Assembly (NCBI RefSeq): GCF_000219605.1
Contig: NC_015740.1
Coordinates: forward strand, 4,340,001-4,404,000
DNA length: 64,000 nucleotides
Reading direction: 5' to 3'
From: Stutzerimonas stutzeri
GTDB lineage: Bacteria > Pseudomonadota > Gammaproteobacteria > Pseudomonadales > Pseudomonadaceae
Made by a program: the position numbers and the translations under genes. Positions 36,687-46,059 of the stretch are shown one piece after another. Every line of letters starts with the position of its first letter. The stretch's first letter is position 1. The notes under the pieces were generated by a model, which saw nothing but the letters and a program-made list of their open reading frames with translations, had not been told where the DNA came from and ran no database searches.

Positions 36687-37433
36687 TCAGAGGTAGCGAC
36701 GCAGCATGCCGTCCACAGTGCCATCGGCACGCATCGCATCGAGCGCCCGCTGCAAGCGCTCGACCACCTCGTCCGGCGTCGCCCGATTGAGCGCAAGGAA
36801 CAATCGCGCCTCATTGAAACGCAGCACCGGCTTCAGCCCGGTCACACCTTCCTGCTTGGCCAGATAGGGGCCGACCGGATCGGCAGTGGCCCAGACATCG
36901 ATCTGGCCCTTGAGCAGCTTGCCGATGTTCTCCTGGTCGCGCAGCGAATTGATCGGCGCCAGCCCCAGGCGCTCCAGATGCTGGCTCACCGCGTCGTTCT
37001 TGTATGCACCGATGCGCAGGCTGCGTGCCTGTTCCAACCCGGTCAGCTGCAGAGAGCTGTCCGCCGGCGCCAGCAGCACCCAGCTGATGCTCGCCAGGGG
37101 CCCGACCCACTTGAACTGCGGCTCCCGCTCGGCAGTGAAGGTGGTGGAAAACAGCCCCTGATCGGGCTGTTCGAGCACCTGCTTGTAGATGCGATCCCAG
37201 GGAAAGCGCAGGCTGAGCTCGTAGCGGATGCTCGCCCGGCGGAACATCTCGCGAACGATGTCGGCGTTGATGCCGTGGATCTTTGCATCGGCCGCGTAGT
37301 TCTTGTTGTCCTCGGCCATGTTGAAAGGTGGAAAGTTTTCGGTCAGCAGCACGACGCGATAGTCGTCGGGCAGCTCGGCATGGGCATGACTGCAGAGCAG
37401 CAGCACGATGGCGGCTAGGATTCGTTTAAGCAT
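36687..37433 (-). CDS. Periplasmic solute-binding protein (SBP_bac_3), copy 1
   Basis: 248 residues from the ATG at 37433 with a signal peptide (MLKRILAAIVLLLCSHAHA). The mature part LPDDYRVVLLTENFPPFNMAEDNKNYA through GINADIVREMFRRASIRYELSLRFPWDRIYKQ has the amino-acid-type SBP family 3 fold. It is the same length as the next gene and clearly a paralogue (shared RFPWxRIY, GLxPVLRF, AINAL-type end RYL). No permease or ATPase is adjacent, so it may feed a distant transporter or act as a sensor. Confidence 0.85.
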   Translation of the reverse strand: MLKRILAAIVLLLCSHAHAELPDDYRVVLLTENFPPFNMAEDNKNYAADAKIHGINADIVREMFRRASIRYELSLRFPWDRIYKQVLEQPDQGLFSTTFTAEREPQFKWVGPLASISWVLLAPADSSLQLTGLEQARSLRIGAYKNDAVSQHLERLGLAPINSLRDQENIGKLLKGQIDVWATADPVGPYLAKQEGVTGLKPVLRFNEARLFLALNRATPDEVVERLQRALDAMRADGTVDGMLRRYL

Positions 37434-37625
37434 GGCTCGCTCCCTGGTTCTGATTCCCGATCCGCCCCTCCGCGGATCATGGCCGAAGCGGTCGAAAGCA
37501 AGATGCGAACCAGCGCAGCAGCACCGCCGCGGTACTCGGGCGGTGGCTGACAAGGACACGATGGGTGCGCCAGAACGGCGCGAGAGGCGTGTGCGGCGCA
37601 CCCTGCTGGCGCGCCGCCATCACCA

Positions 37626-37650
37626 GCCTGACGCGGCAAACGCGTCAGGC
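37626..37650 (-). terminator. Hairpin after the second solute-binding protein gene
   Basis: Perfect 10-bp inverted repeat (GCCTGACGCG and CGCGTCAGGC, 5-nt loop) 14 bases past the minus-strand stop at 37664. No T-run. It separates the two paralogous genes. Confidence 0.55.
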
Positions 37651-37663
37651 GAGAGGAAGCAAC

Positions 37664-38410
37664 TCAGAGATAGCGCGCGTTGATCTCGTCGATCACGCCT
37701 TCGCGGCGCATCTGGTCCAGTGCCTGCTGCAGCTTCTGCACCGTCTCGTCGGCCACCTGCTTGTTCAGCGCCAGGTAGAGTTCGGCGCTGTCGAAGCGCA
37801 GCACGCGCTTGAGCCCGGTCACGCCTTCCTGTCGAGCCAGGTAGCGGCCGGCCGGGTCGCCCGTGGCCCAGAGGTCGATCTTGCCGTCGAGCAGCTTTTT
37901 CACGTTCTCCTGATCACGCAGGGCAAGCACCGGCTGCAGACCCTGGCCCTCCAGGTGCTCGGCGATGGCGTCACCCTTGTAGGCGCCGACCGTGTACTGG
38001 CGAGCCTGGTCCAGGCTGGTCAGGTTGATCGGATTGTCGCCACGGGCCAGCAGCACCCAGTCGTCCGGGCCGATGGGGCCGACCCACTTGAACAGCTCTT
38101 CCCGCTCGGGCAGCCGCGCGGTGACGAACACCCCGTAGTTGGCCTGCTCCAGCGCCATGCCGTAGATGCGCTCCCAGGGGAAACGCAGTGTCAGCGTGTA
38201 ATCGACCCCGGCGCGCTTGAACATCTCGCGCACGATGTCCACCGCGATACCGCTGATGTTTTCATCGCGGGCGAAGTTCTTGCCGTCGGCCGCCATGTTG
38301 TAGGGCGGAAAGTTCTCCGTCAGCAGGTCGATCTTCGCCGGGGCCTGGGCATGAGCCAGCGAGACGCCGAACAGCAACGCACTGGCAATGGAAGCTATGG
38401 TCTTGAGCAT
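37664..38410 (-). CDS. Periplasmic solute-binding protein (SBP_bac_3), copy 2
   Basis: 248 residues from the ATG at 38410, signal peptide MLKTIASIASALLFGVSLAHAQ. Mature motifs: IDLLTENFPPYNMAADGKNFARDE, GIAVDIVREMFKRAGVDYTLTLRFPWERIYG, DQENVKKLLDGKIDLWATGDPAGRY. It is highly similar to copy 1 along its length and ends EINARYL. Ligand unknown; amino acids or related small molecules are usual for the family. The pair lies next to hisF, as similar binding-protein genes do in P. aeruginosa. Confidence 0.86.
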   Translation of the reverse strand: MLKTIASIASALLFGVSLAHAQAPAKIDLLTENFPPYNMAADGKNFARDENISGIAVDIVREMFKRAGVDYTLTLRFPWERIYGMALEQANYGVFVTARLPEREELFKWVGPIGPDDWVLLARGDNPINLTSLDQARQYTVGAYKGDAIAEHLEGQGLQPVLALRDQENVKKLLDGKIDLWATGDPAGRYLARQEGVTGLKRVLRFDSAELYLALNKQVADETVQKLQQALDQMRREGVIDEINARYL

Positions 38411-38428
38411 GAGAATCTCCTGATTGCT

Positions 38429-38449
38429 CGCCCGCAACAGCAGCGGGCG
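38429..38449 (-). terminator. Hairpin between hisF and the solute-binding protein gene
   Basis: 7-bp stem CGCCCGC/GCGGGCG with a 7-nt loop, about 42 bases after the hisF stop and 19 bases before the next start codon. No T-run; a weak terminator or a processing site. Confidence 0.4.
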
Positions 38450-41625: not shown

Positions 41626-41754
41626 CAACAGCTCCGCTGATCGTGGGGCGAAAAGGGGCTCATTATAGGCGCAAACGCCCGGGCGCGGATATGCGCCGGG
41701 CGGCTGGACTGCATCTTGCAGGAAGCTGGTCGTCCAACCGCCGAGGTGCCGCCC

Positions 41755-43056
41755 ATGCACGGACGGAAAATGCCTGCGACCCTGCGCTTCATGCTCGCCT
41801 CCCGGCGCAGCGAACTGCTCGGCCTGGAGGATCTGACCCGCACCTGCGAGCTGGTCACGCGCATCAGCCAGCTGGTTCACGCGCTGCAGAAGGAACGCGG
41901 CTATTCGAACATCTACCTCGGCGGCAATGCCGCTCACCAGCGCCAGCAGCTGGATGCGCTGAGCCTGGAGGCCGAGGCGCTGGAGCGTGCGGTGCGCCAG
42001 GATCTGGACCGCATCGACCTGGAGGCGGTCAGCGCGGCGGACAAGACCCGGCTGTTCACCCGCATCGCCTATGCCCTGCACAGCCTGGACGAGCTGCCCG
42101 CGCTGCGCCGACGCATCCGCGAGCACGCGATCAGCATGCAGGACGCCACGGCGACGCTGGTACGCCTGATCGGCGGGCTGCTGGCCGTCGTCTTCGAAGC
42201 CGCTGACACCGCTTCCGATCCGCACATCACGCGCTGCCTGGTGGCACTGTTCAACTTCATGCAGGGCAAGGAGCTGGCCGGCCAGGAGCGCGCACTGGGG
42301 GTGGTCGGCTTCGCCAGCGGCTATTTCCGCGCCGACATGCTGGAGCGCCTGGAGCACCTGCTGGAAGGGCAGGAGCGTTGCTTCGACACCTTCAGCCGCT
42401 TCGCCAGCCCAGCGGCGCAGGCGCTATGGCAAGCCCTGTGTGCCAGCGATACCAACATCAACGCCTGCCGCTTGCGCGACATCGCCCGCCGGACCAACCC
42501 GGGCGCGGCGGTCGAGGCGCAGCTGGGCGAACTCTGGTTCGAGCTGCACACCGGCCGCATCGACGCCATGAAACATGTCGAGACTCGCCTGGAGCAGGAC
42601 CTGCTGCAGCAGTGCCGGCAGAGCATCGAGCGCATCCGCAAGGACCTGCAGAGCCATCGCAAGCTGCTCGACGGCATCGCCGACATGCACGCCGCCGCCG
42701 AGCAGGCCAAGCTGTTCAGCGTGCAGGCCAGCGACCTCGACACGCCACCGCCGGATGGCATGACCGCGATGGTGGCGCGCTCGACGCTGGAGCTGCTGCT
42801 GACCCAGAGCGTGCGCCTGCAGGGCCTCAATGAGGAGTTGCGCGAGGCACGCCAGGCGCTGGACGAGCGCAAGCAGGTGGAGCGTGCCAAGCAGCAGCTG
42901 ATGCGCCAGCAGGGCTGCTCGGAAGGCGAGGCCTACGGCCGGCTGCGTCAGGCAGCAATGAACCAGGGCCTGCGCCTGGAGGAAGTCGCCCAGCGCCTGC
43001 TGGCGTTGGACGGTTCGGCGAACACGGCCGCACGCGGCCAGCGTTGCCGGCACTGA
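41755..43056 (+). CDS. nasR: Nitrate/nitrite-sensing ANTAR antiterminator, NasR-like
   Basis: 433 residues from the ATG at 41755 (GAGGTG site); ATGs at 41770 and 41791 are alternatives. The N-terminal ~280 residues form a helical NIT domain, with the typical [21 protein letters not shown] signature (KERG) in helix 1. After a linker helix the last ~65 residues form an ANTAR domain: [48 protein letters not shown]. This is the architecture of Klebsiella NasR, which binds nitrate or nitrite and then a two-hexaloop RNA to prevent transcription termination before the nitrate assimilation genes. A matching leader lies 282 bp downstream. Confidence 0.92.
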
Positions 43057-43274
43057 AAACAGGCACGCCGTGCCGCCCAGGGGCCCGCCCTGCCCCGCGA
43101 CTGTGCAGCGACCCGCAAGCCAGCCTGCCCATTCAGCTCGTCGATGGCGGCGACCCGCCTCCCCAGCGCGCCGGCCTTGCGCCTCGACTGCGCGAGCCAA
43201 GTGCCTGATTTACCTGCCCACCAGCCTGTCGCTCGAGCATTCCGGCGGCGCCGACGGGCGCCTCCAGTGCACCC

Positions 43275-43290
43275 TGGCACAGCTTTCGCA
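43275..43290 (+). promoter_or_regulatory. Sigma-54 (-24/-12) promoter of the nitrate transport leader
   Basis: TGGCAC-N5-TCGCA: the -24 GG and -12 GC have exactly canonical spacing, with one mismatch to TTGCA. It predicts a start near 43301, just before the leader hairpins. Sigma-54/NtrC control is the norm for nitrate assimilation operons. No clear NtrC site pair was found in the 218 bp between nasR and this promoter. Confidence 0.75.
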
Positions 43291-43301
43291 ATGACCTGTT
43301 C

Positions 43302-43351
43302 AAGGCCGGATCGCTCGGCTTCCACAACTGACTTTCAGGACAACGGTGTCC
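43302..43351 (+). promoter_or_regulatory. ANTAR-binding leader RNA: two hexaloop hairpins
   Basis: P1: a short stem around the hexaloop ATCGCT (43310-43315), with one bulged G. P2: GGAC (43338-43341), hexaloop AACGGT (43342-43347), GTCC (43348-43351). Both loops have A at position 1 and G at position 4, the rule for ANTAR protein RNA targets. P2 shares bases with the 5' arm of the following terminator, so the two are mutually exclusive, the expected antitermination switch. Confidence 0.78.
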
Positions 43352-43394
43352 ACGCTCTCCGGCTCCAGCCGGGCGGTGTGGCGCCGTTTTTTTT
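43343..43394 (+). terminator. Leader terminator controlled by the ANTAR switch
   Basis: ACGGTG plus CCAC (43343-43353, one bulged T) pair with GTGG plus CGCCGT (43378-43387), around an inner CCGGCT/AGCCGG stem (43359-43372). Eight T residues follow (43387-43394). The 5' arm overlaps hexaloop hairpin P2. The insertion sequence begins immediately after the T-run. Confidence 0.85.
43387..43394. repeat. Left copy of 8-bp target duplication (all T)
   Basis: TTTTTTTT at the left IS border, matched by TTTTTTTT at 44700-44707 on the right. Eight base pairs is the duplication length of ISL3-family elements. Being homopolymeric, the exact border could shift by a base or so. Confidence 0.75.
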
Positions 43395-43423
43395 GGTTCT
43401 TCGCGGACTCTGGGGGAAGAGCG
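43395..43423 (+). repeat. Left terminal inverted repeat of the ISL3 element
   Basis: Begins GGTTCTTCGCGGACTCTGGG and continues GGAAG. Pairs with the right repeat at 44671-44699. Confidence 0.85.
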
Positions 43424-43493
43424 AGTTGACAGTCAGGGAAGCAGGTAAATTGGCAGTCGCCAAACACACCCTTCACCTGTCCCTGCTGTCGCC

Positions 43494-44696
43494 GTGCATC
43501 CTATTGATCTTGCCTCGTTCTGGCCAGGCTATGACGCCGTTGCCTGCCGTTCATCCGCCAACAACTCCCTTCTGATTGAGCTCGAGCCTCAAGCCGGTTC
43601 AGTGCCCAAGTGCGGGCGTTGTGGTCAGCTCAGTCCGTTGATTCACGAGCGCCGAATTCGTCTGGTGCGCGATCGTGATCTGTTCGATCAGCGCGTCTTG
43701 CTTCAACTACCCGTGCGCCGAGTCGATTGCCTGAACTGTGGTCGGGTGACCGAGCGGATCGACTGGCTGGAGCCTGCATCTCGCCTGACCCGGCGGTTAC
43801 AGGTCTGGCTCGAAAGCTTGCTGCGGCTGCTGCCGATCAGCCACGTCAGCCAGCTCACCGGCCTGCACTGGCACACCCTCAAGACGCTCGACAAGCGCCG
43901 CCTGCAAGCCGAGGTAGGCACCTTCTATTCAAGCGGTGTCCGCCGCCTGGTGATGGACGAGTTCGCCCTGCACAAGGGGCATCGCTATGCCACGGTCATC
44001 ATGGACGCCGAGCGAACACGGGTGCTGTGGGTCGGCCACGGCAACAGCCGTGAGGCGATCCGCCCGTTCTTTGAATTGCTCGGCGAGCACTGCCAGCAGA
44101 TTGAGGCGGTGGCCATGGACATGAACACGGCTTTCGACCTGGAGGTGAAGAAGCATTGCCCGCAGGCCGAAGTGGTGTACGACCTGTTTCACGTCGTCGC
44201 GCGCTACGGTCGGGATGTGATCGACCGAATCCGGGTCGACCAGGCCAACCTTCTGCGCGAAGACAAGCCGGCACGAAAGGCGGTCAAGCAGAGTCGTTGG
44301 CTGCTGCTGCGCAACCGCGACAACCTGAAGGACGGACAGGCCGTGCAGTTACAGGAGCTGCTTGCTGCCAACCAGCCGTTGGCTACGGTCTATGTGCTCA
44401 AGGATGCGCTGAAGGATGTTTGGTACGCCCCCAGCGTACGAGAGGGTTGGCGACGCTGGCGAACCTGGCTGCGACATGCTCGCGAGAGCGACCTCGCGCC
44501 GCTGCAACGCTTCGCTCGCAACCTGCGCAAATACGCGCGAGGCATCCTTGCCAGTGCTCACTTCCACATGCATACCAGCGTCCTTGAGGGTGTTAACAAC
44601 CGCATCAAGGTAATCAAGCGCATGGCCTATGGATTCCGGGACTCGGAGTACTTCTTCCTGAAAATCAAGGCCGCCTTCCCCGGGAAAGCGCGATGA
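43494..44696 (+). CDS. ISL3 family transposase
   Basis: 400 residues from a GTG at 43494. An N-terminal zinc finger has C40/C43 (CGRCGQL) and C79/C82 (CLNCGRV). A helix-turn-helix region (about 110-130, LLPISHVSQLTGLHWHTLK) follows. The DDE catalytic triad is readable as D155 (RRLVMDEFALHKG), D209 (VAMDMNTAF) and E365 (LEGVNNRIKVIKRMAYGFRD). All are intact, so the element could be active. The frame is open throughout. It lies directly behind the NasR-controlled leader, so its transcription may be joined to nitrate control. Confidence 0.95.
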   Translation: MHPIDLASFWPGYDAVACRSSANNSLLIELEPQAGSVPKCGRCGQLSPLIHERRIRLVRDRDLFDQRVLLQLPVRRVDCLNCGRVTERIDWLEPASRLTRRLQVWLESLLRLLPISHVSQLTGLHWHTLKTLDKRRLQAEVGTFYSSGVRRLVMDEFALHKGHRYATVIMDAERTRVLWVGHGNSREAIRPFFELLGEHCQQIEAVAMDMNTAFDLEVKKHCPQAEVVYDLFHVVARYGRDVIDRIRVDQANLLREDKPARKAVKQSRWLLLRNRDNLKDGQAVQLQELLAANQPLATVYVLKDALKDVWYAPSVREGWRRWRTWLRHARESDLAPLQRFARNLRKYARGILASAHFHMHTSVLEGVNNRIKVIKRMAYGFRDSEYFFLKIKAAFPGKAR

Positions 44697-44699
44697 ACC
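44671..44699 (-). repeat. Right terminal inverted repeat of the ISL3 element
   Basis: Read on the minus strand it begins GGTTCATCGCGCTTTCCCGG and continues GGAAG, matching the left repeat. It contains the transposase stop codon (44694-44696). Confidence 0.85.
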
Positions 44700-44707
44700 T
44701 TTTTTTT
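44700..44707. repeat. Right copy of 8-bp target duplication (all T)
   Basis: TTTTTTTT directly after the right inverted repeat, 20 bases before the nrtA start codon. Confidence 0.75.
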
Positions 44708-44727
44708 CGCCCAAAGGAAATTCGACC

Positions 44728-46059
44728 ATGACCGACAAGCCGAACAATGACCAGCCCAGCGACCTGACCCTGGCCTCGCGCCGCAGCTTCCTCAAGCATT
44801 CGATCATCGCCGCCAGCGGGGTCGCCCTGTTCGGCGGCATGTCCCTGGGCATGCGTTCGGCCGCCTGGGCTGCGGGCGGCGACGTGGAAACCAGCAAGGC
44901 CAAGCTCGGCTTCATCGCCCTGACCGACGCCGCACCGCTGTTCGTCGCCGCGGAAAAAGGCTTCTTCGCCAAGTACGGGATGACCGAGGTCGAGGTGCTC
45001 AAGCAGTCTTCCTGGGGCACCACCCGCGACAACCTGGTGCTCGGCTCGGCGAAGAACGGCATCGATGGCGCGCACATCCTCACGCCCATGCCCTACCTGA
45101 TCAGCGCCGGCATCGTCACGCCGAACAACCAGCCGGTGCCCATGTCGATCCTCGCGCGGCTCAACCTGGCCGGGCAGTGCATCTCGGTGGGCGAGGAGTA
45201 TCGCGATCTGAAGATCGGCCTCGACAGCACGCGGTTCAAGGCGGCGTTGGAGGCGAAGAAGGCTGGCGGCAAGAAGGTCAGCGCCGCAGTGACCTTCCCC
45301 GGCGGCACACACGACCTGTGGATGCGCTACTGGCTGGCCGCCGGCGGCATCGACCCGAACGCCGACATCAACACCATCGTCGTGCCGCCAGCGCAGATGG
45401 TCGCCAACATGAAGGTCGGCAGCATGGACACCTTCTGCGTCTGCGAGCCGTGGAACGCCCAGCTGATCAACCAGAAGATCGGCTACACCGCCAACACCAC
45501 CGGCGAGCTGTGGCACAACCATCCGGAGAAGGCCTTCGCCCTGCGCAGCGACTACGTGGCGGCCAACCCCAACGCGGCCCGCGCGCTGACCATGGCGATC
45601 ATGGAAGCCCAGCAGTTCTGCGAGAAGGCCGAGAACAAGGAAGAAGTGGCGAAGATCTGCTCGCAACGCAAGTGGATCGGCGCGCCCTACAAGGACATCG
45701 TCGACCGCATGAAGGGCAACTTCGCCTACGGCACCGGCAAGGTCATCGAGAACCATCCCGAGCAGATGCGCTACTGGGACGACCACGCCTCCTATCCGTT
45801 CCAGAGCCACGACCTCTGGTTCCTCACCGAGAACAAGCGCTGGGGCTACCTGCCGGCCGACTTCGACAGCCAGGCGCTGATCGCCAAGGTCAACCGCGAA
45901 GACATCTGGCGCGCCGCGGCCGGCGAGCTGAACCTGCCCGCCGAGCTGATCCCGACCTCCACCTCCCGCGGCGTGGAGAAGTTCTTCGACGGCAAGCTGT
46001 TCGATCCCGAGAACCCGCAAGCCTACCTGGACAGCCTGACCATCAAGGCCATGGCCTGA
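44728..46059 (+). CDS. nrtA: Nitrate ABC transporter substrate-binding protein, NrtA/CmpA family
   Basis: 443 residues with an N-terminal twin-arginine signal: SRRSFLK at residues 17-23, then a hydrophobic stretch ending SAAWA. The mature part (KLGFIALTDAAPLFVAAEKGFFAKYGM, then VTFPGGTHDLWMRYWLAAGGIDPNAD and VCEPWNAQLI) matches the nitrate/bicarbonate-binding NrtA/CmpA family. It captures nitrate for NrtBC. An AAAGGAAA site precedes the ATG. Its leader has been split off by the IS: only 20 bases remain between the IS duplication and the start codon. Confidence 0.93.
   Translation: MTDKPNNDQPSDLTLASRRSFLKHSIIAASGVALFGGMSLGMRSAAWAAGGDVETSKAKLGFIALTDAAPLFVAAEKGFFAKYGMTEVEVLKQSSWGTTRDNLVLGSAKNGIDGAHILTPMPYLISAGIVTPNNQPVPMSILARLNLAGQCISVGEEYRDLKIGLDSTRFKAALEAKKAGGKKVSAAVTFPGGTHDLWMRYWLAAGGIDPNADINTIVVPPAQMVANMKVGSMDTFCVCEPWNAQLINQKIGYTANTTGELWHNHPEKAFALRSDYVAANPNAARALTMAIMEAQQFCEKAENKEEVAKICSQRKWIGAPYKDIVDRMKGNFAYGTGKVIENHPEQMRYWDDHASYPFQSHDLWFLTENKRWGYLPADFDSQALIAKVNREDIWRAAAGELNLPAELIPTSTSRGVEKFFDGKLFDPENPQAYLDSLTIKAMA

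Follow-up and report, generated by a model that had tools for sequence, protein, structure and literature searches.

An ISL3-family insertion sequence in the U-tract of a nitrate-transporter leader terminator, and the target preference of its relatives

The nrtA leader and its inserted element

The 64,000-nucleotide stretch of the Stutzerimonas stutzeri genome analysed here (NC_015740.1, positions 4,340,001 to 4,404,000; hereafter the window, whose own numbering is used throughout) carries, all on the + strand and in this order, a NIT-ANTAR regulator gene, a strong leader hairpin, a run of eight thymines (T8), a 1305-bp insertion sequence (IS), a second T8, a ribosome site and an nrtA-like gene. 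The regulator gene (41716-43056) encodes a NasR-like nitrate/nitrite sensor fused to an RNA-binding antiterminator (Pfam NIT, 4.8e-54; ANTAR, 1.5e-16), and the gene at 44728-46059 encodes a nitrate transporter binding protein (Pfam NMT1_2, 9.6e-109), for which we retain the name nrtA given in the first-pass annotation. The terminator hairpin of the leader lies at 43344-43386, its stem abutted by the left T8; folding of 43338-43394 gives -33.4 kcal/mol (z = -5.4), a stability that none of 200 shuffled sequences reached. This stem is interrupted, such that a strict test for perfect stems yields only 4 bp and fails although the energy is strong (-30.2 kcal/mol), and the strict-stem counts reported below therefore run low, because strong interrupted stems of this kind fail the strict test.

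The IS occupies 43395-44699 and is bounded by imperfect inverted repeats that start with GG, GGTTCTTCGCGGACTC and GGTTCATCGCGCTTTC, which match at 18 of 24 positions. It is flanked by an 8-bp target-site duplication, TTTTTTTT, identical at 8/8 positions, whose left copy (43387-43394) is the U-tract of the terminator and whose right copy lies at 44700-44707. The transposase gene (43494-44696; GTG start, 400 aa), delimited from its ORF and from Pfam and NCBIfam profiles, has the zinc ribbon, HTH and DDE domains PF14690, PF13542 and PF01610 (DDE_Tnp_ISL3, 1.8e-71), and its product matches NCBIfam NF033550 at 2e-100 (336.5 bits, cut-off 180). Together with the 8-bp duplication and the inverted repeats, these matches bear out the assignment to the ISL3 family made in the first-pass annotation, which had also placed the element exactly in the U-tract, between the leader and nrtA and in the same direction as both, as the coordinates confirm. 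Ahead of nrtA the ribosome-site region AAAGGAAA (44713-44720) remains. An ORF of 143 codons (43144-43575, + strand) spans the leader into the left end of the IS and is probably spurious. Elsewhere in the window, on inspection by eye, two adjacent ORFs on the - strand (304 and 257 aa, 36687-38437) are similar to each other and to solute-binding proteins, which may point to a duplication.

Among 56 genomes of the genus, our own included, 25 carry the NIT-ANTAR gene, leaving 24 relatives for comparison of this locus. In 20 of these the site is empty: the hairpin is followed by a single T-run (T8 in 19 relatives, T9 in one, L046), then by CGCC..AAGGAAA, with AAGGAAA at the place equivalent to the ribosome-site region, and by nrtA, whose first 150 aa are 83-99% identical to those of the window gene; no IS end is present. 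In the other four relatives nrtA was not found adjoining the NIT-ANTAR gene. Since 20 of 24 relatives have the empty site, the insertion arose in the window strain's own lineage and fell exactly into the U-tract. The ancestral arrangement predicted earlier, hairpin, T8 and nrtA, is thus the one found, with neither a differing ancestral site nor IS ends located elsewhere, and the hairpin and T8 left whole upstream of the IS have the same arrangement as at the empty sites.

Target tracts and neighbouring hairpins in further copies

Relatives of the element were collected in a search of the genus (matches in 15 of 56 genomes at 1e-100, own included) and of the family (30 of 398 genomes at 1e-140), the latter with at most four candidates scored per genome and eight multi-copy genomes rescanned; further copies came from extra stretches and from titled genome records, of whose 358 loci the best 80 were kept. 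A class-level search at 1e-160 added no further relative, the single matching genome of 369 being the window's own. We could locate both ends in 138 copies and not in 38 other matches, in an end-finding set that omitted loci L008, L009, L036-L061 and L200-L227; 17 of the 138 repeat a site already counted, giving 121 unique sites. The target duplication agreed at 8/8 positions in 92 of these, at 7/8 in 10 and at fewer in 19. Omitting the latter 19 and one site with a short flank left 101 usable sites, of which the 65 with elements at least 84% identical form our core set.

The core sites share a strong and nearly symmetric consensus, which on the T strand reads four G/C positions, T8 and four G/C positions. 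The T strand was the transposase strand in 38 core sites and the other strand in 27, so that no orientation bias relative to the T-tract was detected in these 65 sites (p = 0.21). Seven copies (L148, L151, L197, L099, L012, L027 and L072) have unlike flanks, mostly with an A/T tract on each side, as might result from chromosomal rearrangement by recombination between copies. In one genome (G082), two neighbouring copies in opposite directions (L161 and L186), less than 1 kb apart, have flanks that resemble each other, which may reflect duplication or rearrangement at this locus.

In the window's own genome we found seven full copies of the IS, six of them in terminator U-tracts, with the terminator pointing in the direction of the transposase at L001, L002, L003 and L005 and in the opposite direction at L006 and L007; the duplication of L007 agrees at 6/8 positions in register. 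The remaining copy, L004, has the target ATAATTAA, which is no terminator U-tract. T-runs of at least 8 occur at 63 places in this genome; as five IS copies account for 10 of these with their paired flanks, the 4.55 Mb would ancestrally have held about 58 such tracts. Five of the seven copies thus lie in some 58 tracts, each random insertion having a probability of about 1.7e-5 of doing so (at 1.3 positions per tract). When the unoccupied G/C-bounded T8 runs of the genome were judged by eye, 11 of 21 looked like terminators, and because about half of such runs are terminators, part of the link to terminators follows from the tract alone.

The hairpins were distributed unevenly about the tract. 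A perfect stem of at least 5 bp abutted the T side at 37/65 core sites and the opposite side at 4/65, and a hairpin of up to 32 nt with an energy of -8 kcal/mol or below was found at 47/65 sites versus 12/65 on the mirror side, the foot of the stem touching the duplication directly in 42 of the 47. We adopted perfect stems or hairpins of up to 32 nt because energy scoring with hairpins of up to 46 nt proved too lax in G+C-rich flanks, the mirror side reaching -8 kcal/mol or below in 10/15 and 27/50 cases. By identity of the element, sites with a hairpin amounted to 11/15 (at least 95%), 36/50 (84-95%), 9/11 (65-80%) and 10/25 (54-63%).

Other insertion sequences in the same genomes behave differently. 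In six genomes where one test was applied to both sets, this ISL3 element was at a terminator in 43 of its 53 copies (three rearranged copies being scored on either flank), as compared with 2 of 42 elements of other families (p = 6e-15, Fisher); by strict stems the counts were 34/53 and 1/42. The control elements were those with PF01609 or PF00665 (DDE_Tnp_1, rve) transposases, for which boundaries were obtained at 42 of 60 loci. We also compared insertion sites with sequence-matched background sites of equal score from the same loci, and found a strict stem at 36/58 insertion sites versus 22/92 background sites (p = 3e-6), a gap that was smaller at higher scores (33/49 versus 10/30, p = 0.003); by energy at -8 kcal/mol, 40 of the 92 background sites had a hairpin. 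With only non-coding sites considered, strict stems occurred at 34/54 insertion and 17/65 background sites (p = 5e-5), and stratification by leave-one-out score, which took in 48 of the 54 insertion sites and all 65 background sites, gave odds ratios of 5.7 (p = 3e-4, strict) and 5.2 (p = 0.0014, energy), on background sets that are small (92 sites, 65 of them non-coding) and hold no site in the top score stratum. By both comparisons, insertion beside intrinsic terminator stems exceeds expectation (43/53 versus 2/42; matched odds ratio 5-6).

A hairpin of -8 kcal/mol or below is absent at 18/65 core sites, and the share of copies at terminators varies by genome (3/7 in G032, 8/11 in G112). Plasmid copies, chosen before their flanks were seen, comprised 10 stretches, 9 of them with ends, at 8 distinct sites, among them three that the earlier set had included (L143, L165 and L028); two of the eight adjoin a hairpin (L325 and L326), and the others are mostly T8 or similar tracts, one being AAATCTTT. 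In G032 (L010), two copies of the IS stand in tandem with one common A8 and no terminator stem; judging from this arrangement the duplicated T-run seems to have been reused as a target, and a tract beside an IS end can thus serve as one. These hairpinless core, plasmid and G032 sites speak against a strict need for a hairpin, and we take the tract to be the primary requirement and the hairpin a preference within the chromosome set.

Target recognition and related systems

The element makes 8-bp duplications, prefers T tracts, and adjoins hairpins more often than other IS families and matched background sites do. Probably, in our assessment, the ISL3 transposase prefers T/A tracts of 8 bp with G+C-rich borders, and on the G+C-rich chromosomes examined the tract used is mostly the U-tract of an intrinsic terminator. 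As the 8-bp duplication would copy the U-tract, the host terminator would remain complete; the IS would then lie just past a rebuilt terminator, where few transcripts arrive, and so would do the host little harm and be shielded from read-through in either orientation.

What the hairpin contributes is where the readings part. We give a nearly even chance to the transposase reading only a T/A 8-mer with G+C borders, through DNA shape, terminators being struck as the holders of many such tracts in a G+C-rich genome and the hairpin having no part in it. The strength and near symmetry of the consensus favour this, as do the hairpinless T8 insertions among the chromosome-set and plasmid sites and the use of the A8 between two IS copies, but the hairpin excess persists, against a small background, when sites are matched for coding status and for 20 bp of their sequence. 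Tentatively, we also consider that a DDE transposase may have evolved to seek intrinsic terminators, sensing the stem and U-tract as DNA structure or sensing the terminating RNA polymerase; the U-tract would become the duplication, the stop signal would be rebuilt with the element parked behind it, and where the terminator is regulated, as in nrtA, the transposase would come under a host switch. Survivorship, with insertion occurring widely and copies persisting only at harmless spots behind genes, is improbable: 54/65 core sites do lie outside long high-GC3 ORFs, and terminators are harmless places, but mere survival in such places is disfavoured by the other IS families, which faced the same selection in the same six genomes and are at terminators in 2/42 cases, and non-coding background of equal tract score has fewer hairpins.

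Two further candidates were rejected. Chance coincidence does not fit five of seven copies in about 58 tracts of a 4.55-Mb genome, nor the difference from the control elements at terminators. The terminator could also belong to the element itself, as proposed for mobile attenuators, a class of terminators upstream of transposases that counts ISL3 (mainly Firmicutes) among its members and is read as IS-owned (PMC2965389); for the window element we dismiss this almost entirely, since the hairpin is present at the empty site of 20 relatives, lies outside the inverted repeat, varies between sites, and is on the opposite side in 2/7 own-genome copies. In contrast to the mobile attenuators as described there, the terminator at the window IS belongs to the host and serves as the target.

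With ISL3 insertion sequences generally the window IS shares the transposase family and 8-bp duplications rich in A/T; the nearest named relative we found is a transposase annotated as ISAeme19 family (76% identical). PMC7643977 names 8 bp as the classical duplication length for ISL3, gives T-rich examples, and describes an ISL3 element with such duplications inside genes. The CLJ-ISL3 element (an ISPst2 isoform; 2985 bp, GGGTATCC ends) is reported within many genes, unlike the subgroup of the window IS, which is about 1.3 kb long, has GGTTCWTCGC ends and lies mostly at terminators in the chromosome set. An ISL3-wide sample, with matches in 28 of 349 genomes, yielded ends for only 5 of the 28 loci tested; one of two GGTTC-ended copies was at a hairpin, and none of three with other ends. 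Plasmid-borne ISL3 elements with the names ISKpn25, ISKox3, ISEc53 and ISCfr12 are more remote, at about 25% identity. The ISL3 family is described as over-represented between co-directed genes (PMC9208149), and a different case, the disruption of an rRNA terminator in an event involving an ISL3 element, is described in PMC11702846. In the portions of the literature searched we found no account of a terminator preference for ISL3 or another DDE insertion sequence; ISfinder lay outside this search, and prior notice there is possible.

DDE elements that aim at a transcription signal are, to our knowledge, few. Group IIC introns are not known to make a target duplication and are retroelements that act as an RNA-protein complex, whereas the main ORF of the window element encodes a DDE transposase, and neither intron RNA nor a reverse transcriptase of this group was found in it. 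They resemble the window IS in inserting at intrinsic terminator motifs (PMC4424553, citing Robart 2007). The Mutator-like DDE elements of the TnGBS, ISLre2 and ISKra4 group are likewise aimed at a transcription signal, which in PMC3942029 is the promoter: their insertions fall upstream of sigma-A promoters, those of TnGBS in conserved orientation, as compared with terminators and no detected orientation bias for the window IS. If true, a preference for intrinsic terminators, coupled to their rebuilding by the element's own duplication, would amount to a clear low-damage strategy, and landing in terminator T-runs may let the IS spread while harming the host little. Such targeting would explain the terminators upstream of some transposases without the IS carrying them, and would raise the question of whether the transposase reads DNA, a cruciform or a terminating polymerase.

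The regulated leader as a landing site

In the window strain, the terminator struck is that of the nrtA leader, probably a regulated one. A putative ANTAR hexaloop hairpin, GGAC-AACGGT-GTCC (43338-43351, + strand), overlaps the 5' arm of the terminator, as the hexaloop hairpin does in 21 of 21 leaders, and its loop follows the A1/G4 rule for hexaloops of ANTAR leader hairpins (PMC3369931); as predicted structures, the hexaloop hairpin and the terminator are mutually exclusive. This overlap, and the NIT-ANTAR gene upstream, support the earlier description of the leader as sensor-controlled. The first hairpin of an ANTAR pair (stem of at least 4 pairs) was found near the second in only 1/21 leaders (L055) by the same simple test, the window leader having one candidate about 155 nt further upstream of the hexaloop hairpin. 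An Rfam scan of 43000-44900 returned a chance match only (E = 0.83).

By this layout, the transposase gene and nrtABC probably now stand together behind an ANTAR-type antitermination switch, and nitrate read-through would cross the transposase gene before nrtABC. Nitrate-linked expression of the transposase, suggested in the first-pass annotation, is plausible for the window copy. The stronger reading, a nitrate-controlled IS whose transposase, with nrtABC, would be expressed only when NIT-ANTAR antiterminates the leader, we regard as possible but rather doubtful. It draws on the shared direction, the intact terminator, and the NIT-ANTAR gene and hexaloop hairpin upstream, and a crude scan of 43000-44800 recognised no sigma-70-like promoter, an absence that fits dependence of nrtABC on read-through but proves nothing; against it stand the near-absence of the first ANTAR-pair hairpin close to the second and the six other copies elsewhere, which leave selection for the nitrate link unproven. 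The insertion site is not special to the regulated nrtA leader. Given its preference for T-tracts, chiefly terminator ones, the nitrate link is probably a by-product of where the element settles. Such a preference would also make regulated leaders natural landing sites, so that insertion there could bring a host operon and the transposase gene of the element under shared control.

A second leader of the same kind was seen at two loci (L058 and L059), where a homologue about 51% identical to the NIT-ANTAR protein is followed by a hairpin, T8 and an ORF that, by eye from its translation, is NirB-like.
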